Assembly (NCBI RefSeq): GCF_006334915.2
Contig: NZ_VDMA02000006.1
Span: 372,001 to 436,000, forward strand
DNA length: 64,000 nucleotides
Source of the DNA: Microbispora catharanthi
Lineage (GTDB): Bacteria > Actinomycetota > Actinomycetes > Streptosporangiales > Streptosporangiaceae
Reading direction: 5' to 3'
Shown: piece after piece, positions 31,480 through 58,495 of the stretch
Position numbering within the stretch: position 1 is the first letter of the stretch
Layout: every line of letters begins with the position of its first letter
Translations under genes and position numbers: made by a program
Notes under the pieces: generated by a model
Database searches by the model: none
Told to the model about the DNA's origin: nothing
What the model saw: only the letters and a program-made list of their open reading frames with translations

Positions 31480-33285
31480 TCAGCCACAGTGTGACCACGC
31501 GCTGCTCCAGGCGGCGGTGCCGTAGCCGCCGCCCCAGATGACGCACTTGCCCTTGGCCGGCAGCCGGATCGGCCCGGCGTAGGTCGTGTAGCTGCCGGAG
31601 TCGGTCTTCGACGAGCCGTTCTGGACCTTGAGGACCGCGCTCATCTTGATCTTTCCGGGCACCACGTACTTCGACATGGTGATCACACAGTTGTAGCCGT
31701 TGGACGCGTTGTAGAGCAGGTACGTCGTCGCCTGCCCGTAGGAGTGCGAGTCGACGACGGCGTAGCCGCTGCCGCACACGCCCTTGGCGGTGTACGGGTT
31801 GAGCTTGGGCGCCGCGGTCTGCGTCGGGGTGGCCTTCGCCGTCGCGCTGGGCTTGGGCGCCGTCGTGGTCTTCGCCGGAGCCGGGGTGGTCTTCGCGGGT
31901 GCCGGCGTGGTCTGCGCCGGCGCGGTGACCTTGGGAGTGGGCTTGACCTGGGTCGGGACCGGGTGGGAGGGCGACGGGTGCGCCTGACGGGTGCGCGTGG
32001 GGGAGGCGGCCGGCTTCGGTCCCACGCTCGGCCGGTGTGCCGAGGGACTCGGCGAGGGCTTCCTGTCTTTCGGCCGCACGGGGTTGGTGACCAGATCGGA
32101 CGGCTGCGGGATGGGCACGTCGTCGTCCTGGGACTGCGTCACCATGGGCGTCACCGTGGGCGACGCGGTGGGACCGAGGGGGTCCTCCGAGGAGATCTGC
32201 TGGGCGGACACCCACGTCGGCACGAGGAAGGCCGCCGCCGCGAGGACCGACACCCCGACACCGGCCGCCGTCCACGTCAGCACCGGCCGCCGCGGTCGCG
32301 ACCCGTCGGGGCCGGGCCCGCGCCGTACGGGCGGTGCGGGCGGCGTGGGCGCTCCGGCGCCGTGCGGCCCCGGTACGGGCGCGTGCGGGCCCGGCGCATG
32401 CGGCCCGGGCACCGGCGCGGCGCCGTGCGGCCCCGGTCCTGGTGCCTGCGGCCCGGCCGCGGCGGCGGGCCGTACGGGCATGGTGGGCTGCCCGGTGAGC
32501 CGCGCGACCACGTCCTCGGCCGAGGGACGCAGCGCGGGGTCCTTCGACAGGCACGCGGCGACGATGTCCCGCAGGGGCGCCGCGAGGTCGCCCAGGTCGG
32601 GCTGCGCGTGCAGGATCCGGGTGATCACCGAGGGGATCGAGTCCGCTCCGAAGGCGGGCCTGCCGGTGGCGGCGAACACCATCGTGACGCCCCAGGCGAA
32701 CATGTCGGCGGACCCGCCCGCCGTGCCGCCGGAGAGCACCTCGGGGGCCAGGTAGGCGGGTGTGCCGATGGACGCGCCGGTCGCGGTGGACTGGGGCGAG
32801 TCGGGCGCCCTGGCCACCCCGAAGTCGATGACGACCGGGCCCTCGGGGCCCATCAGGACGTTGGCCGGCTTGAAGTCGCGATGGGTGATGCCCGCCCGGT
32901 GGATGGCGGCCAGCGCCGTCGCCGTGCTGATGGCGAGCCGTTCGAGCGCGGCGCCCCTGCGCGGGCCCTCCCGGTCGACGAGCTGCCGCAGCGACGGCCC
33001 GGACACGAACTCGCTGACGATGAACGGCTGGTTGCCCGCGAGGTCGGCGTACAGGACGGGGGCCGTGCAGAAGGGCGCGACCCGCTGCGCCAGCGCGACC
33101 TCGCGCAGGAACCGCTCCCGTGCCTCGGGATCGGCCGTCAGCCGGGTGTGCAGCAACTTGACCGCGACCTGCTCGCCCGCCGGGCCGCGCCCCAGGAAGA
33201 CGACCCCCTGGCCGCCCTCCCCGAGCCGGTCGACGAGCGTGAACGGGCCCAGGCGGTCGGGATCCCCAGCCTCTAACGCCACCAT
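31480..33285 (-). CDS. Receptor-type Ser/Thr protein kinase with secreted Cys-containing domain
   Basis: A 601-residue kinase. Residues about 14-265 form the kinase domain: GEGGQGVV glycine loop, Lys43 in AVKLL, HRDFKPANV with catalytic Asp137, DFGVA, and GTPAYLAPEVL. A Pro/Gly/Ala linker leads to one transmembrane helix (about 340-360, AAGVGVSVLAAAAFLVPTWV). The outer part begins with Thr/Pro/Lys-rich wall-spanning repeats (TTPAPAKTTPAPAKTTT) and ends in a compact domain of about 105 residues (GVCGSGYAVVDSHSYGQATTYLLYN...) with four cysteines. I do not recognise the outer domain. The kinase part closely resembles that of the kinase-MFS fusion at 49952. Confidence 0.9.
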   Translation of the reverse strand: MVALEAGDPDRLGPFTLVDRLGEGGQGVVFLGRGPAGEQVAVKLLHTRLTADPEARERFLREVALAQRVAPFCTAPVLYADLAGNQPFIVSEFVSGPSLRQLVDREGPRRGAALERLAISTATALAAIHRAGITHRDFKPANVLMGPEGPVVIDFGVARAPDSPQSTATGASIGTPAYLAPEVLSGGTAGGSADMFAWGVTMVFAATGRPAFGADSIPSVITRILHAQPDLGDLAAPLRDIVAACLSKDPALRPSAEDVVARLTGQPTMPVRPAAAAGPQAPGPGPHGAAPVPGPHAPGPHAPVPGPHGAGAPTPPAPPVRRGPGPDGSRPRRPVLTWTAAGVGVSVLAAAAFLVPTWVSAQQISSEDPLGPTASPTVTPMVTQSQDDDVPIPQPSDLVTNPVRPKDRKPSPSPSAHRPSVGPKPAASPTRTRQAHPSPSHPVPTQVKPTPKVTAPAQTTPAPAKTTPAPAKTTTAPKPSATAKATPTQTAAPKLNPYTAKGVCGSGYAVVDSHSYGQATTYLLYNASNGYNCVITMSKYVVPGKIKMSAVLKVQNGSSKTDSGSYTTYAGPIRLPAKGKCVIWGGGYGTAAWSSAWSHCG

Positions 33286-47574: not shown

Positions 47575-47632
47575 ATTCTCTGAGGCGGCTCACAGGGTAG
47601 GCCCGGTGAGCGGGGAGGACCCTGTAGGCATC

Positions 47633-48361
47633 ATGCGTAAGACTTCGAACGACCAGCCCGGACTGGTCCGCCCCGACGGAACCCCCGTACGCGTCCTCGT
47701 GGTCGACGACGAACCGGACCTCGTCGAGGTCCTCGCCGCGGTGCTGAAGTACGAGGGATGGGAGGTGCGCACGGCGGGTGACGGGACGTCGGCCGTGCAG
47801 GAGGCACGGGAGTTCCAGCCCGACGCGGTGCTGCTGGACGTGATGCTGCCCGACTTCGACGGGCTGGAGGTGCTGCGCCGCCTGCGTGCCGAGGCCCCGG
47901 ACGTGTGCGTACTGTTCCTGACCGCGCGCGACGCGGTGGAGGACCGCATCGCGGGCATCACGGCGGGCGGGGACGACTACGTGACCAAACCGTTCAGCCT
48001 GGAGGAGGTGCTCGCCCGGCTGCGCGGGCTGCTGCGCCGCGCCGGCATGGCGCGCAGCGCCGAGGGCGACCGGCTGGTGGTGGGCGATCTGGTGATGGAC
48101 GAGGACGCCCGCGAGGTGACCCGGGACGGGGAACTGGTCGATCTCACGCCGACCGAGTTCGAGCTGCTGCGCTTCCTCATGCGCAACCCCCGGCGCGTGC
48201 TGAGCAAGGCGCAGATCCTCGACCGCGTCTGGTCGTACGACTTCGGCGGGCAGGCGCACGTGGTCGAGCTGTACATCAGCTACCTGCGCAAGAAGATCGA
48301 CGCCGGCCGCAGGCCGCTGATCCACACGGTGCGGGGCGTGGGATACGTCCTGCGGCCGTGA
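47633..48361 (+). CDS. OmpR-family response regulator
   Basis: A 242-residue regulator. Receiver: VLVVDDEPDLVEVL, phospho-acceptor Asp69 in LLDVMLPDFDG, FLTARDAVEDRIAG, YVTKPFSLEEVLARL. C-terminal winged helix: DLTPTEFELLRFLMRNPRRVLSKAQILDRVWSYDFGG...[10 protein letters not shown]. It matches the PrrA/TcrX-like actinobacterial group. ATG 47633 is used; GTG 47606 in frame is an alternative giving 9 more residues. The kinase gene follows after 10 bases. Divergence from the flavin operon suggests that operon as a target. Confidence 0.9.
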   Translation: MRKTSNDQPGLVRPDGTPVRVLVVDDEPDLVEVLAAVLKYEGWEVRTAGDGTSAVQEAREFQPDAVLLDVMLPDFDGLEVLRRLRAEAPDVCVLFLTARDAVEDRIAGITAGGDDYVTKPFSLEEVLARLRGLLRRAGMARSAEGDRLVVGDLVMDEDAREVTRDGELVDLTPTEFELLRFLMRNPRRVLSKAQILDRVWSYDFGGQAHVVELYISYLRKKIDAGRRPLIHTVRGVGYVLRP

Positions 48362-48371
48362 TCGCGCCGCC

Positions 48372-49892
48372 GTGACCGGCTCGCCGCGCCACACGGTGCC
48401 GCGTACGCGCCGCCGCCTGCTTCGCCTGGTGCCGACGACGCTGCGGGCCCGCCTGGTGGTGGGCACGCTGGTGCTGCTCGTGCTCGCCTGCGCGGCGGCC
48501 GGGGCGGCCTCGTCCCTCCTGCTCGAACGCTTCATGGTCGAACGAGTGGACCAGCAGCTGTCCGTGACGGCCGGGCGGTTCGCGGCGAGCCTGGCCCACG
48601 AGGAGCGCGAGCACGGGTATCCGCGCAATCCGTACGGCGAGCGCGGCGACTCGCGCGGCCAGGCCCCCGGCACGCTGGGCGTCCTCGTCCGGGACGGCCA
48701 GGTGGGCGAGCCGGCGGTGGTGGGCCGGGCCGACCCGGTCCTGTCCGCGGCGGACCAGAGGTTGCTGGCCGCCGTCCCGGCCGACGGGCTCGGGCACACG
48801 GTGGACATGTCCTCGGGCGGACTCGACGACTACCGGGTGATGGCCGTGGAGAACGACGACGGGGAGCTCCTCGTCACCGGCCTGCCCCTGGACGACGTGC
48901 GTGACACCGTGCAGCGCCTGCAGATGGCCGAGATCGGGGTGTTCGCCGTCGTCGTGCTCGTCACCGGGATCGCCGGGGCCGTCTGGGTGCGGCTGTCGCT
49001 GCGCCCGCTGGACCGGGTCGCGGCCACGGCCCGGCGCGTGGCCCGCCTGCCGCTGGCCGACGGTGAGGTGGCGCTGCCCGAGGGGGTGCCCGACGAGGAC
49101 CCCCGCACCGAGATCGGCCAGGTGGGGGAGGCCTTCAACCGCATGCTCGGCCACGTGGGGCGGGCCCTCGCCCACCGCCACGCCAGCGAGCAGCGGATGC
49201 GCACCTTCGCGGCCGACGCCAGCCACGAACTGCGCACCCCGCTCGCCACCGTCCGCGCCCACGTCCAGCTCGCCCGGCGCGACGAGCGGGCCGTCCCCGG
49301 CGCCGTGCGGCACGCCCTGGAACGCATCGACGCCGAGTCGGCCCGCATGGGCACGCTCGTGGACGACCTGCTGCTGCTCACCCGGCTCGACGCCGGCCGC
49401 CCGCTGGCGCGCGAGGTGGTCGATCTGACCCGCCTGGCCATCGACGCGACCGGCGACGCCCGCGCCTACGGGCCCGACCACCGCTGGAGGCTCGATCTGC
49501 CCGAGGAGCCGGTCACCGTGCCCGGGGACCCCGACCGGCTCCACCAGGTGGTGGCCAATCTGCTGGGTAACGCCCGCGCGCACACCCCGCCCGGCACGAC
49601 GGTCACCGTGGCCTTGCGTGTGCCCGGCCCGGACACGGTGGAGCTGACCGTGACCGACGACGGCCCCGGCATCCCCGAGGACCTTCAGGGCGAAATCTTC
49701 GAGCGGTTCGTCCGCGCCGACAAGGCCCGCACCCGGGCCTCGGGCGGCAGCGGCCTGGGGCTCGCGATCGTCAAGGCGGTGGTGGCCGCGCACGGCGGCA
49801 CCGTCGACGTCGAGAGCCGTCCCGGCCGTACGGCGTTCCGGGTCATACTGCCCGCCGGGCCTGTGCCGTCGGACAAGGCGCTTCTCGATTGA
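48372..49892 (+). CDS. Sensor histidine kinase
   Basis: A 506-residue kinase. First transmembrane helix about 27-50 (LVVGTLVLLVLACAAAGAASSLLL), outer domain of about 130 residues, second helix about 178-200 (IGVFAVVVLVTGIAGAVWVRL), HAMP, dimerisation domain with His285 in DASHELRTPLATVRAHVQLA. The ATPase domain has NLLGNARAHTPP (N box), VTDDGPGIPEDLQGEIFERFVR and GGSGLGLAIVKAVVAAHGG. GTG 48372 is the first start after the regulator stop. The signal is unknown; redox or iron status would fit the divergent flavin operon, which is inference. Confidence 0.92.
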   Translation: MTGSPRHTVPRTRRRLLRLVPTTLRARLVVGTLVLLVLACAAAGAASSLLLERFMVERVDQQLSVTAGRFAASLAHEEREHGYPRNPYGERGDSRGQAPGTLGVLVRDGQVGEPAVVGRADPVLSAADQRLLAAVPADGLGHTVDMSSGGLDDYRVMAVENDDGELLVTGLPLDDVRDTVQRLQMAEIGVFAVVVLVTGIAGAVWVRLSLRPLDRVAATARRVARLPLADGEVALPEGVPDEDPRTEIGQVGEAFNRMLGHVGRALAHRHASEQRMRTFAADASHELRTPLATVRAHVQLARRDERAVPGAVRHALERIDAESARMGTLVDDLLLLTRLDAGRPLAREVVDLTRLAIDATGDARAYGPDHRWRLDLPEEPVTVPGDPDRLHQVVANLLGNARAHTPPGTTVTVALRVPGPDTVELTVTDDGPGIPEDLQGEIFERFVRADKARTRASGGSGLGLAIVKAVVAAHGGTVDVESRPGRTAFRVILPAGPVPSDKALLD

Positions 49893-49951
49893 TCCTGACC
49901 CCTGGTGATCGGTTCCGGTAATGTCGCCCCGTCCGATACCGGGAGGGGGAC

Positions 49952-52342
49952 ATGGCGGGGTTACGGGCGCTTCGTACCGACGATCCGCGGCAGGTGGGCC
50001 TCTACCGGCTGCTCGGCCTGCTCGGCGAGGGCGGCCAGGGAACCGTTTACCAGGGCCTGGCCCCGGGCGGTGAGCCGGTGGCGGTGAAACTGCTGCACGC
50101 GCGGTTCGCCGGGGACGACCGGGCGCGGGCGCGGTTCGCGGCCGAGCTGGACCACGCGCGCAGGGTGGCGGCGTTCTGCACGGCGCGGGTGCTGGACGCC
50201 GACGTGGCGGGGGATCGTCCCTACATCGTGTCGGAGTTCGTGGCGGGGCCGTCGCTGGGTGAGGTGATCGCCTCGGGCGGGCCGGTGACGGGCGGTGCGC
50301 TGGAGCGGCTGGCGATCGCGACGGTGACCGCGCTGGCGGCGATCCACGAGGCCGGGGTGGTGCACCGCGACTTCAAGCCGGGCAACGTCATCATGGGGGC
50401 GGACGGACCTCGGGTGATCGATTTCGGCATCGCGCGGGCGCTGGACGCCACCGGCACCATGTCCAGCGCGGTCGTGGGCACCCCCGCCTACATGGCGCCC
50501 GAGCAGATCGCGGGACAGGCGGTCGGTCCTGCCGCGGACGTCTTCGCCTGGGCCTGCACGATCGCGCACGCCGCCACCGGGGCCACCCCCTTCGGGCAGG
50601 ACTCCATCCCCGCGGTCATGCACCGCATCCTGCACGCCGACCCCGACCTGGGCCCCCTCACCGGCGCACTGACCGGCCCGTTGCGCGAGATCCTCACCGC
50701 CTGCCTGGCCAAGGACCCCGCCCGCCGCCCCGCCGCCCGGCAGATCCTGCTGAGCCTCCTCGGCGCCGGCCACCCCGCCGACACCTTGCTCGCGGAAGGC
50801 GCCCGCGCGGCCGCCCACCCCGCCGCCCACCCCGGTCCCGGCGCCGGCCCACCGCCGTACGACGGGCCGCGGCCCTCCGACGCCCCGCCTCCGCGCACGC
50901 TGCCGCTGTCGTCCGCGCCTTCGGCCGCCGACGGCCCGCGGCCCGGCGCGCGGGTGCTCGGCGCGTCACCGATGATCGTGGCGGCGGTGCTGGCGCTGGG
51001 CGGGTTCATGGTGCTCCTGGACGGCACCGTGATGGGGACGGCCGTGCGTACGCTCTCCATGGACTTCGGGGCGTCGTACGCGGACGCGCAGTGGGTGATC
51101 ACCGCCTACCTGCTGGCCGCGACGATGGTCATCCCCGTCACCGGATGGCTGGCTCAGCGGTTCGGGGCGGCGGCGGTGTGGATCACCGCACTCGTCCTGT
51201 CGTTGGCCGGCTCGGTCCTGTGCGGGCTGGCCTGGTCGTTCGGCGCCCTCATCGCCTTCCGGGTGATACAGGGACTCGGCGCCGGGATGGTCTTCCCGCT
51301 GAGCCGCATCCTCGTCGCCGAGGTCGCCGGCCGCGAGCGGCGCGGCCGGGCGATGGCCCTGATCGCGGTGGCCGTGCAGGCGGCGCCCATCGCCGGGCCC
51401 GTCGTCGCGGGAGTGGTCATCGACATGCTGTCGTGGCGGTGGATCTTCTTCCTCACCGTCCCCCTGCTGCTGCTGACGAGCATCCTGTCCGCCGTGCTCA
51501 TTCCCTTCGCACCCGACCCGGCGGTCGTCGGCCGGCCCGACGTGGGCGGGCTGATCTGCCTGAGCGGCGGACTGACCGCGGTCGTCTTCGGGTTGAGCCG
51601 GATGGGCGGGAACGTCGCCTCGGTCGTCACGCCCGAGGTCGCACTCCCCTTGACGGCCGGGGTGGGGCTGCTCGCGGCGTACGTGGGGTGGGCGGCCCGA
51701 TCCACCGGGCGGGTGGTGGACCCGCGCCTGTTCCGCGACCGCGCGTTCGCCGCCTCGGCATCCGCGTCGCTGCTCCACCACGTCGCGCTCTTCGCCGCGG
51801 TGTTCCTGGTGCCGCTGTACTTCCAGACCGTCGACGGCCTGTCGGCCCGGCAGGCCGGCTGGTTGTTCGCCGCGCAGGGGGCGGGCACGCTCGTCGCGGT
51901 GCTCCTGGCCGGGTGGCTGGTCGACGTCTCGCGCAACGCGCGCCTGCCGGTGCTCGTCGGCCTCGCCCTGGTCGCGGCCGGCACGCTTCCCTTCGCGCTC
52001 GCCTCGGCGCACACGAATCCGCCGGTGCTGGTCGCGGCGTTGTTCGTCCGCGGCGTCGGGCTGGCGTTCGTCGGCACGCCCCTGATGACCAGCCTCTATC
52101 ACTCGCTGCCGGAGGCGCGGATCCCGGCGGCGACGACGGCCAACGCCATGGGCCTGCAGGCCGGCGGCGCGGCGGGGACGGCGCTGATCGCGGTGGTGCT
52201 GGGATGGTCCACCGTCCCAGGCGTCGCGAGCCTGAGCTCGGGATTCCCCTCGGCGTTCTGGGCGATTCTGGTGGTCGTCGCGCTCACCGTGGTCCCCGCC
52301 CTGTTGCTGCCCGCGGGCGAGGCCCGCCGGACGAGCACCTGA
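49952..52342 (+). CDS. Fusion of a Ser/Thr protein kinase and a DHA2-type MFS transporter
   Basis: A single 796-residue frame without interruption. Residues 17-270 are a kinase: glycine loop GEGGQGTV (25-32), Lys46 in AVKLL, HRDFKPGN with Asp140 and Asn145, DFG at 157-159, GTPAYMAPEQ. Residues about 275-338 are a Pro/Ala linker. Residues 341-790 are a 14-helix-type MFS drug/proton exporter: GGFMVLLDGTVMGTAVRTL (motif D1), WVITAYLLAATMVIPVTGWLAQRFGAAAVW (motif A region), FRVIQGLGAGMVFPLSR (motif B) and SWRWIFFLTVPL. All catalytic kinase residues are kept. The ribosome site GGGAGGGG before ATG 49952 is strong. The kinase half is most like that at 31480. Substrates are unknown. Confidence 0.92.
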   Translation: MAGLRALRTDDPRQVGLYRLLGLLGEGGQGTVYQGLAPGGEPVAVKLLHARFAGDDRARARFAAELDHARRVAAFCTARVLDADVAGDRPYIVSEFVAGPSLGEVIASGGPVTGGALERLAIATVTALAAIHEAGVVHRDFKPGNVIMGADGPRVIDFGIARALDATGTMSSAVVGTPAYMAPEQIAGQAVGPAADVFAWACTIAHAATGATPFGQDSIPAVMHRILHADPDLGPLTGALTGPLREILTACLAKDPARRPAARQILLSLLGAGHPADTLLAEGARAAAHPAAHPGPGAGPPPYDGPRPSDAPPPRTLPLSSAPSAADGPRPGARVLGASPMIVAAVLALGGFMVLLDGTVMGTAVRTLSMDFGASYADAQWVITAYLLAATMVIPVTGWLAQRFGAAAVWITALVLSLAGSVLCGLAWSFGALIAFRVIQGLGAGMVFPLSRILVAEVAGRERRGRAMALIAVAVQAAPIAGPVVAGVVIDMLSWRWIFFLTVPLLLLTSILSAVLIPFAPDPAVVGRPDVGGLICLSGGLTAVVFGLSRMGGNVASVVTPEVALPLTAGVGLLAAYVGWAARSTGRVVDPRLFRDRAFAASASASLLHHVALFAAVFLVPLYFQTVDGLSARQAGWLFAAQGAGTLVAVLLAGWLVDVSRNARLPVLVGLALVAAGTLPFALASAHTNPPVLVAALFVRGVGLAFVGTPLMTSLYHSLPEARIPAATTANAMGLQAGGAAGTALIAVVLGWSTVPGVASLSSGFPSAFWAILVVVALTVVPALLLPAGEARRTST

Positions 52343-52347
52343 CCCCG

Positions 52348-52367
52348 ACCCCCCTGTTTGAGGGGGT
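52348..52367 (+). terminator. Short terminator after the kinase-MFS gene
   Basis: ACCCCC (52348-52353) pairs with GGGGGT (52362-52367) around an 8-base loop, 5 bases after the stop codon. The 60 bases that follow are unusually AT-rich for this genome and then G-rich, with no clear promoter. Confidence 0.5.
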
Positions 52368-53359: not shown

Positions 53360-55875
<2,516 letters not shown>

Positions 55876-55891
55876 GGCTTACGGGGCGTGC

Positions 55892-58366
55892 TCAGCCGTT
55901 GGGGAAGAGCAGGCCGTACTGTCCGAGCGCGGTGGCCACGTCGGTCTGCGCCCAGAAGCGGTGGTAGTGGAAGACCGGCGCGGATCCGCCGTTCAGGTAC
56001 GACTGGACCTTCGGCCAGTCCGGGTCGTTCTTGTACCAGGACCGGATGGAGATGAAGGTCGAGTTGCTGTTGATCGGGTCGCCGTTCGGCATCTTGCCGG
56101 TCCAGCCGGACGGGACGTAGATCGGGTCGTCGAGGCGGTTGTAGTCCGTCTTGGTCTCGGCCACCGACACGCCCTTGGCGTCCTGGTTGTTCTTCCAGAT
56201 GCCGTCGAGCAGCGCCTTGGCCGTGCTCTTGGCCTGGGCGTTGCCCGACTTGGCCGCGTAGAACATCAGCGTCTTGGCGTACGAACCGGCCACGCCGATG
56301 TCGTCGGTGTAGTCGGCGATGGTCACGTGCAGGCCGGTGTTGGCCGGCGGCATCCCGGTGCCGCTGAAGCTGGCGTCCGGCTGGCCGGTCCAGTGCAGCG
56401 TCGACGGGATCTGGAAGGTGCCGTCGGAGTTCACCGTGGTGCCGGACAGCGCCCAGGTGACCCACTTGTCGAGCACCGACTTGGCGTCGGCGTTGCCCGT
56501 GGCGTAGTAGTACTCCGCCACGCGCTCCATCGACCACGCCTGGAAACCGAACCACTGGTTCGACGGCGGGTCGTGGTAGACCGGCTGCCAGTCATAGGCC
56601 ATGCCGAAGAACTTCGGCAGACTCGACGGCGGGGCGGCGTAGTGACCCTCCCAGCTGTTGGTCGCGCCACCGGCGATGGCGCCCTCGGCCGACTGCAGCC
56701 ACTTGTAGAACTGGATCTGCCGGGTGAGGCTGGTCGACCAGTCGGTGACGGCCGTGGCGCCCTTGGGCTTCAGCGCGCTGACGTTCGACAGCGCCCAGGC
56801 CGCCATCGGGTTCTGGTAGCCGCCGTGGTTGTGGCTGGAGCCGATGCGCCAGGCCCAGCCGGCCGACGTGTCGTACGCGCCGCCCCAGGCGTAGTACCAG
56901 GACAGCAGGTAGTTCGACGCGTTCTTGCCGGTGCCCGCCGGGCAGGAGGTGCTGGTGCAGTTCGGCTGCTTGAAGTACTTGTCGTACATCGCGTAGCGCA
57001 GGTAGTCGCCCATCTTCGCGGCGTTGGCCACGGAGGTGGAGATCTGCGACTGCTTGCCCTGCTCGGTCGCCCAGGTCAGCGCCCAGTAGGCGGCCTGGAC
57101 GGCGCGGGCGTCGGCGTCCGGCGCGTTGGTGTACTTCCACTGCTTGGCGTAGCTGCTGTCGCCGGTGAACAGGTCGAGGTACCCGTTCGGGCCGCCGAAC
57201 TTGAAGGTGTCGCACGACGGCTGCGGGATGGTCTCGAAGACCGACTCCTCGGGCCCGCGCTGGTAGGTGTTGATGTACGCCGGCTTGGTGGTGCCGTCGC
57301 CGCAGCGGCCGTAGCCGTAGGTGTTGTCGACGTCCAGCAGCCAGTGCATGCCGTAGATGTCGGAGGTGCCGTAGGCGGACTTCAGCTCGCCCGCGATCGG
57401 GTCGGTGCCGACGCTGACGCTGTTGTCCAGCTTCGACGGGTACTGGCTGATGTCGTTCCACTCACCCGCGTACGTCGCCGGCTTGCTGGCGTCGTACTTG
57501 TCGTTGGTGGGCTGGTCGGTGTGCGACGGGATGATGTACTTCTCCATCGTCGTCCACGCGGTGTTGAACTTCGACCAGTCACCGGTGATCTTGCCGTACA
57601 TCGCCTCCAGCCACAGGTAGTAGCTGAACGCCTCGGACGTCGTCTCGTGGCCCTGGTCGGGAGCCTCCACGAGCAGCGTCTCGACCGAGTGGTACGGCAC
57701 GCCCTGGGGCGAGAAGTACCCGTTGGCCGGGTCGTGGATCTTGTTGTACATCGTCATGAAGTTGTTGATGTACTGGTTGTCCCCCGGCGAGGGGCTCGTC
57801 GACGGCGACGCGGAGGGCGACGCCGAAGGCGAGGCGGAGGGGGACGCCGACGGCGACGCGGAGGGCGACGCGGACGGGCTGGCCGAGGGGCTCGGGGAGG
57901 GGCTCGGGGACGGGCTGACGGTCGCCCCACAGGTCACGCCGTTGATGGAGAACGAGGTGGGCTTGTTGTTGCTGCCGGACCACGTTCCCTGGAACCCGAT
58001 GTTGGTCGTCGCGCCGGTGCCGAGGTTCCCGTTCCACGACATGTTCGTGGCCGTGACGGTGGCGCCGCTCTGGCTCCAGTTGGCCGACCAGCCGTTCGAC
58101 AGCCTCTGCCCGTTGGGGAAGTCGAACTTGAGCGTCCAGCTGCTGATCGAGTCGCCCAGGTTCTTGATGTCCAGGCTGGCTGTGAAACCGCCCGATCCGG
58201 AACCCCAGGAGTTAAGCGCGTACTGGACGTCGCAGGACACGGCGGCGGACGCGGGGGTCTGCGCCAGCCCGACGAGGAGGCCGCCCGACACGGAGGCGGC
58301 CGCCAGCAGGGCGAGCCGTTTCCGCGATCGTGGGAGCGCTCCCGTACTCAGAGCTCTCGTTCGCAT
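55892..58366 (-). CDS. GH48 cellobiohydrolase with N-terminal CBM2
   Basis: An 824-residue secreted exo-cellulase. Signal peptide [20 protein letters not shown] then [11 protein letters not shown]2 ([23 protein letters not shown]...GVTCGATV), a Pro-Ser-Ala linker, and the GH48 catalytic domain from about residue 195 ([51 protein letters not shown]). The Glu in [13 protein letters not shown] is the conserved acid. It acts processively from chain ends, as the central enzyme of aerobic actinobacterial cellulose systems. ATG 58366 places the signal peptide correctly; a longer frame starts inside the promoter. A CelR box lies at the inferred transcription start and a second inside codons 7-12. Confidence 0.93.
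57785..57915 (-). repeat. Pro-Ser-Ala linker minisatellite in GH48
   Basis: About seven units encoding SASPSP-like hexapeptides (GACGGCGACGCGGAGGGC on the plus strand, with variants) link the CBM2 and the GH48 domain. Units are nearly identical at DNA level, indicating recent expansion. Confidence 0.8.
58331..58344. promoter_or_regulatory. Second CelR-like box, inside the GH48 signal-peptide codons
   Basis: TGGGAGCGCTCCCG, 13 of 14 matches to the palindrome at 58475. Centre-to-centre distance is 144 bases, suitable for looping or a roadblock. Confidence 0.6.
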
Positions 58367-58474
58367 TTGAGGAGGGTCTCCAAAGTGGGTTGGGGGTGGG
58401 AGCATCGGGTGAAGAAATGCCAGGTAGCGGATTTCGTGACCGATGCGGGCAAGGGTGGATCTGAACCGATACGA

Positions 58475-58488
58475 TGGGAGCGCTCCCA
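58475..58488. promoter_or_regulatory. CelR/CebR operator of the cellulase genes
   Basis: Perfect palindrome TGGGAGCGCTCCCA. This is the known 14-bp site of the LacI-family cellulase repressor CelR/CebR, which is released by cellobiose. It begins about 7 bases after the -10 of the GH48 promoter, so bound repressor would cover the transcription start. Confidence 0.92.
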
Positions 58489-58495
58489 CCTCAGG

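Follow-up and report, generated by a model that had tools for sequence, protein, structure and literature searches.

A Ser/Thr kinase joined in one chain to a DHA2-type MFS fold in Microbispora: an exporter fold that may anchor or steer a kinase

In Ks-Amt5 of Kuenenia, an ammonium sensor histidine kinase, the Amt domain has lost transport and signals, according to the portion of PMC5764959 on which we draw. CbrA of Pseudomonas joins an SLC5 domain to a histidine kinase, and a chimera reportedly shows that its signalling does not depend on transport; UhpC, in turn, works with the kinase UhpB (both from the cited sections of PMC8871633). Transceptors are called rare in the text consulted of PMC11109136. 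Here we describe a locus of Microbispora catharanthi in which a Ser/Thr kinase is joined to a transporter fold of the major facilitator superfamily (MFS). An earlier note on this DNA had raised the question of whether such an architecture was already well described. We found no description of a Ser/Thr kinase-MFS fusion among the open-access papers listed in our searches, and none in the parts of PMC1262709, PMC2877116 and PMC11032199 that we cite.

The window, the 64,000-nucleotide stretch that was analyzed from this 9.25 Mb genome, carries the fusion gene on its plus strand (49952..52342; ATG at 49952, stop ending at 52342). It is a single frame of 796 codons plus stop, uninterrupted by internal stops, just as the earlier note had read it. 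The Ser/Thr kinase domain (residues 18-266; 50003..50749, plus strand) matches Pfam PF00069 with 134 bits; both sequence and Pfam bear out that it is complete, with its catalytic residues present (K46, HRDFKPGN, DFG and APE). It scores below the PASTA-type Stk1/PknB model NF033483 (169.9 bits against a cut-off of 450), and there are no PASTA repeats among the Pfam matches of the protein. A Pro/Ala linker (residues 271-337; 50762..50962, plus strand), mostly predicted to be disordered, leads to a DHA2-type MFS domain with 14 predicted helices (residues 338-796; 50963..52339, plus strand). The assignment of a 14-helix-type MFS was upheld by family models, AlphaFold2 and Foldseek: Pfam MFS_1 matches residues 347-743 with 206 bits (cut-off 33.4), and the NCBIfam EmrB/DHA2 model TIGR00711, for which only the window copy was scored, matches residues 341-750 with 260.9 bits (cut-off 230.2). 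An AlphaFold2 model of the window protein, built on a 24-sequence alignment (mean pLDDT 79.3, pTM 0.59), consists of a kinase, a disordered linker (residues 286-335 at pLDDT below 50) and 14 long helices between residues 340 and 784. Foldseek matches of the kinase include M. tuberculosis PknB, and those of the MFS part include EmrB, EfpA and QacA. By its motifs and predicted fold, the kinase half is an intact PknB-like (Hanks-type) Ser/Thr kinase.

The transporter motifs A, B and D1 had all been listed as present. In the window copy D1 (D357, T359) and motif B (R437, Q440, G441) are indeed intact, and W381 and the Gly-Pro of motif C are preserved; motif A, however, is degenerate, with QRFGAA instead of D-R/K-x-G-R-R/K. 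Because G297, the nearest free-standing relative, has the same sequence at this site, this loss need not stem from the fusion.

The fusion is present in four of 15 Microbispora genomes, those of the window's own species, M. siamensis, M. rosea and M. hainanensis, in each case at the same genomic site. When the four genes are aligned as nucleotides, the kinase part is free of gaps, and 18 of the 20 gap intervals elsewhere have lengths divisible by three; the remaining two, of 4 and 1 bases, both lie in the linker and cancel each other's offset. Pairwise against the window gene, every gap is a multiple of three (7/7, 5/5 and 10/10). The other three pairs give 5/9, 8/13 and 8/10, the rest being short neighbouring gaps that reflect aligner placement. 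No copy is truncated (0/4), and a search for a stop or frameshift between kinase and MFS found none in the linker, where the lengths of the orthologues vary through frame-keeping indels. The indels of the four orthologues imply that the frame is maintained through the linker and the MFS, and the recurrence of this frame in four genomes, with such indels, that the fusion is not an assembly error. It might still be argued that two genes were joined by a sequencing error, or that the MFS half is translated separately from an internal start, for which M341, just ahead of helix 1, is conceivable from sequence. Yet the frame is continuous in four independently assembled species and the linker itself carries frame-keeping indels; the orthologues rule out sequencing error as the origin of the fusion, and we consider an artefact of either kind highly improbable. 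The single-chain kinase-MFS fusion is real and conserved.

In all four bearers the gene order is FMN-binding protein, ferric-reductase-like protein, response regulator, histidine kinase, fusion, GH9 and GH48, the neighbours being named by eye from sequence rather than by family search. In the window, an OmpR-type response regulator (47609..48361, plus strand; named by eye from its conserved part) pairs with a sensor histidine kinase (48372..49892, plus strand). Six Microbispora genomes show the same order minus the fusion. Homology to these empty-site genomes ends at about 49857, with some 35 bases of the histidine kinase gene still to come, and restarts at the fusion stop codon or a few bases on (about 52339-52350), delimiting an inserted segment at 49858..52339 (plus strand); in one of the six, G002, the borders are less clean (homology ends at about 49843 and restarts at about 52412). 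The remaining five genomes yielded no such locus: their top-scoring histidine kinase matches reach only 43-46% identity. A tree of five flanking genes, which is unrooted, splits the four genomes with the fusion from the six without it at a support of 1.0. Given six empty sites, and a root that to judge by branch lengths falls on the side of the non-bearers, the fusion was probably gained once in Microbispora. Its start codon is preceded by a GGGAGGGGG stretch and lies 59 bases past the histidine kinase stop. This spacing makes co-transcription with the histidine kinase likely and, by position and orientation, the fusion is probably co-transcribed with the response regulator/histidine kinase pair.

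Several details of the locus deserve separate record. The insertion altered the last dozen codons of the histidine kinase (window 49858-49892), which differ from those of the empty-site genomes, and a similar LPAG stretch ends both the histidine kinase and the fusion, perhaps marking a recombination site. In M. hainanensis, short PSRAEP-like repeats stand ahead of the histidine kinase core, and the fusion linker has repeated GHPA units at about residue 277. On the other strand, GH9- and GH48-type cellulases with Ser/Pro linkers (window 53360-58489; named by eye) adjoin the locus in all ten genomes compared.

Where did the kinase half come from? Seven kinases are closest to it, with 74-81% identity over the trimmed domain; they come from Microbispora, Actinoallomurus, Actinomadura and a fourth genus. 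They form a clade with the fusion kinases with support of 0.923, or 0.956 with M. corallina included. The earlier note had proposed close kinship with the receptor kinase at 31480 of the window, and hence a domain swap. That kinase lies on the opposite, minus strand, and is 58% identical to the fusion kinase in the trimmed domain. Ranked among 87 kinase domains it comes only 58th in identity and 46th in tree distance, which gives no support to a swap. Nor do the relatives fit the idea of an outer sensor domain giving way to the transporter: none of the seven nearest kinases shows a large outer domain, and in six of them the C-terminal domain is short and has four predicted helices. In a set of 82 distinct kinase frames, picked by similarity, the kinase is followed by one predicted helix in 59, by four in eight and by an MFS-like part in five, namely the four fusions and a protein of genome G098 described below.

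Two further groups of kinases came to light in this comparison. The members of one kinase subfamily (L109, L110, L108, L024, L025 and L026) end alike, in a C-terminal domain of some 200 residues for which four helices are predicted; in L109 this domain has no Pfam family above the cut-off and is possibly an undescribed membrane domain. In Nonomuraea, two kinases (L031 on the minus strand and L033 on the plus strand) end in another domain, of six helices, and look alike by eye.

The closest free-standing relatives of the MFS half are found in G297 and G488, two genomes that share a genus and belong to a different family of the class (2/295 genomes sampled in that genus). These two are 85% identical to each other, with the next best at or below 44%, and are 44-51% identical to the fused MFS domains over aligned positions. 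Their frames have 520 and 513 residues, too short for an added kinase, so the proteins are free-standing. We had considered Q452R, F607L, P641A, G705A, S740A and the degenerate motif A as losses specific to the fusion; all are common to G297 and G488, and we rejected them as such.

As the earlier note had suggested, we searched for the two-domain architecture in samples of the order and class. A whole-length profile run on 121 genomes of the order, with the best eight candidates per genome, found full-length matches only in M. catharanthi, M. rosea and M. siamensis, M. hainanensis being outside this sample. In 197 genomes of the class, with the best five scored, it was full-length only in the window genome among the matches listed; a profile of the junction, run on 296 genomes of the class with the best seven scored, covered the whole junction only in the window genome and M. 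siamensis among the matches listed. A pattern scan of genome contigs gave 38 confirmed loci, full-length in three Microbispora. Because the profile searches score few candidates and the best matches are those listed, fusions to other MFS types may have been missed. Three kinases with long matches (L174, L178 and L180) have four or five helices and do not look MFS-like by eye; four other loci (L175, L176, L177 and L181) are absent among the kinases listed with three or more helices, or were missed by the motif.

The searches also found one half-MFS fusion, in genome G098 of another genus of the family (L112, 1702-3327, minus strand; C1:1143737-1145359). This protein has a kinase, a Pro-rich linker and six MFS-type helices, followed by a stop, and its MFS_1 match reaches 39.4 bits (cut-off 33.4). 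It was seen in one of five genomes of its genus. Its kinase sits on a different branch of the kinase tree from the fusion kinases, and its best alignment to the window MFS is 36% over 76 residues; this weak match and the kinase's other branch argue for an independent fusion. Half an MFS is unlikely to pump alone, which makes a non-transport use of the fold plausible in G098.

To compare selection on the two halves we used dN/dS (Nei-Gojobori, with bootstrap intervals) in the six species pairs of the four fusions; third positions are 92-97% G+C, so that absolute values are rough and only comparisons count. In the kinase half (residues 1-270) dN/dS is 0.20-0.27, against 0.67-0.86 in the fused MFS at similar dS, and the bootstrap intervals are disjoint in all six pairs. 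The intervals of the fused MFS reach 1 in three pairs and lie below 1 in the other three. The neighbouring histidine kinase gives 0.22-0.45, in an alignment that takes in about a dozen codons before its start, and a free-standing DHA2 paralogue of the same four species 0.35-0.55, with intervals overlapping those of the fused MFS in four of six pairs. The G297/G488 pair, gap-free over 450 codons, has a dN/dS of 0.19 (0.14-0.26), at a larger dS of 0.41.

These values bear on whether the MFS half does anything at all. If it were a decaying chance fusion, with selection on the kinase only, one would look for values near one, as approached here and reached by the intervals of half the pairs, for many indels, as are found, and for an excess of nonsynonymous changes. 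Such an excess is seen in the branch contrasts of MFS against kinase for M. siamensis (p 0.02) and M. hainanensis (p 0.003), though four fusion sequences are too few to separate relaxed from diversifying selection; the M. rosea contrast is not significant (p 0.16), and on the window branch synonymous/nonsynonymous singletons number 7/5 in the MFS and 10/3 in the kinase (p 0.41). On the other hand, the intervals stay below one in the remaining pairs, the indels preserve the frame through linker and MFS, every copy is full to its end, and columns that are near-invariant in free-standing DHA2 proteins vary less among the fusions (9/43) than variable ones do (79/168). Stop codons would be created by about 0.5% of the changes considered in helix cores, so their being missing is weak evidence alone, and avoidance of polar residues in helix cores is not significant (9 of 85 against 14.7% expected, p 0.18). 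By these comparisons, constraint on the fused MFS is weakened, not gone, and we think it quite unlikely that this half has no selected role.

A second alternative is a working exporter with a built-in kinase, in which phosphorylation of the linker or a neighbour gates export, or the transport state sets kinase activity. The window copy is its best witness: it scores above the curated TIGR00711 cut-off, has 14 helices with D1 and motif B intact, and shows no measurable relaxation on its branch. Constraint on the fused MFS, moreover, is only partly separable from that on the free-standing paralogue of the same species. A further comparison used 61 columns in which at least 16 of the 19 free-standing DHA2 proteins, several of them closely related to one another, agree, as do both nearest relatives. 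In all four fusions 42 are unchanged, and 19 are changed in at least one. Four are changed in all four fusions: V361M, F417S, G486A in motif C, and N502, lost from helix 6. The free-standing proteins keep G486 in 19/19 and N502 in 18/19. G486 is the first closing glycine of the antiporter motif as written in the section of PMC10604125 cited here, in which the most conserved motif C glycine of TetA(C) accepts Ser and Ala; by analogy, Ala may be tolerated in motif C of the fusions. At near-invariant DHA2 columns the fusions differ in 9-13 of 46, and divergent free-standing proteins at least as often (up to 21 of 60), so column departures alone prove no loss of transport.

The number of helices differs among the four fusions. 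A plain hydropathy scan gives 14 helices in the window copy, 12 in M. siamensis, 10 in M. rosea and 12 in M. hainanensis; an AlphaFold2 model of the M. hainanensis fusion also has 12 helices, with lower confidence than the window model (mean pLDDT 70.2). The segment of helices 7-8 (residues 521-578; 51512..51685, plus strand) is absent in M. rosea, and 47 of its 58 codons are absent in M. hainanensis, in addition to further indels. These two are sisters in the fusion-gene tree, and perhaps lost the pair in one event; that a 12-helix core is left, however, tells against repurposing of the fold. MFS_1 scores are 131-146 bits in the other three fusions and 175-180 in three free-standing relatives; the window copy, which outscores both, is the least changed of the four. 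The elevated clade-wide dN/dS relative to the nearest free-standing proteins, the helix loss and the changes at G486 and N502 argue against a maintained pump, and the half MFS of G098 also speaks against the exporter. We therefore regard a working exporter as possible but on balance doubtful. Kinase-gated export, which the earlier note had put forward, is less favoured, least so for the window copy with its branch not significantly relaxed, and that copy could still be pumping.

The reading we prefer, and give an even chance, is that a membrane kinase of the PknB kind recruited a DHA2-type MFS fold that is now an anchor or input domain rather than a maintained pump. A former exporter may have found a new use in anchoring or steering a kinase, the kinase half being tightly conserved and the exporter half drifting. 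Reuse of the fold is supported by the other short polytopic domains of the nearest kinases and by the half transporter of G098; the good transporter score, 14 helices and nonsignificant branch relaxation of the window copy count against it. In such a protein the MFS fold, no longer retained as a pump, would tie a cytosolic kinase to the membrane through a flexible linker. It could serve as an anchor alone. Alternatively, a ligand or lipid that shifts the conformation of the MFS would move the linker, and occupancy may in this way reach the kinase. The kinase could then phosphorylate the adjacent response regulator or another membrane-proximal target, the two-component pair being a candidate partner by position alone. 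The transceptor idea of the earlier note survives to this extent, as a receptor or anchor derived from an exporter fold with sensing possible; transport as a maintained property is unsupported by the clade-wide constraint and the helix loss. More speculatively, and somewhat unlikely in our estimate, the fusion would be a receptor Ser/Thr kinase that senses through a non-pumping former MFS drug exporter, a counterpart of Ks-Amt5 and CbrA that arose at least twice in one family, its exporter half freely adapting to new ligands.

For most bacterial Ser/Thr kinases no activator is known. If a kinase is coupled to the fold of a small-molecule exporter, the ligands of exporters, such as drugs, metabolites and lipids, become candidate signals. 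Such a protein would also extend the conversion of transporters to receptors from histidine kinases to Ser/Thr kinases. The locus is also a good natural experiment: the empty site survives in relatives, a single insertion seems to have occurred, its four descendants have changed to different extents, and free-standing proteins serve as controls.

How does the fusion compare with known proteins? With EmrB, EfpA and QacA it shares fold, family model and motifs D1 and B; these are not fused to kinases, and the 19 free-standing proteins compared keep G486 (19/19) and N502 (18/19). Like actinobacterial PknB-type receptor kinases it has an N-terminal kinase, a Pro-rich linker and membrane attachment, but in most of those kinases (59 of 82 frames) a single predicted helix follows the kinase domain, whereas the fusions have 12-14. 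The G098 protein has the same succession of kinase, Pro-rich linker and MFS-type helices, but with the N-terminal MFS half only and a kinase of another branch. UhpC has the MFS fold and is not known to be a DHA2 protein. It resembles the fusion, as far as the cited account of it goes, in being a transporter-like receptor for a kinase, and differs in that UhpC and UhpB are separate proteins and the kinase is a histidine kinase. CbrA, from the sections cited, carries a transporter domain of 13-14 helices on a kinase, as does the fusion, but its fold is SLC5, STAC and PAS domains intervene, and it is a histidine kinase. Finally, Ks-Amt5, as portrayed in the cited portion, likewise has a transporter domain and a kinase in one chain; there an Amt fold that has lost transport is combined with a histidine kinase in the reverse domain order, whereas the fusion, known from its sequence, combines an MFS fold with a Ser/Thr kinase.
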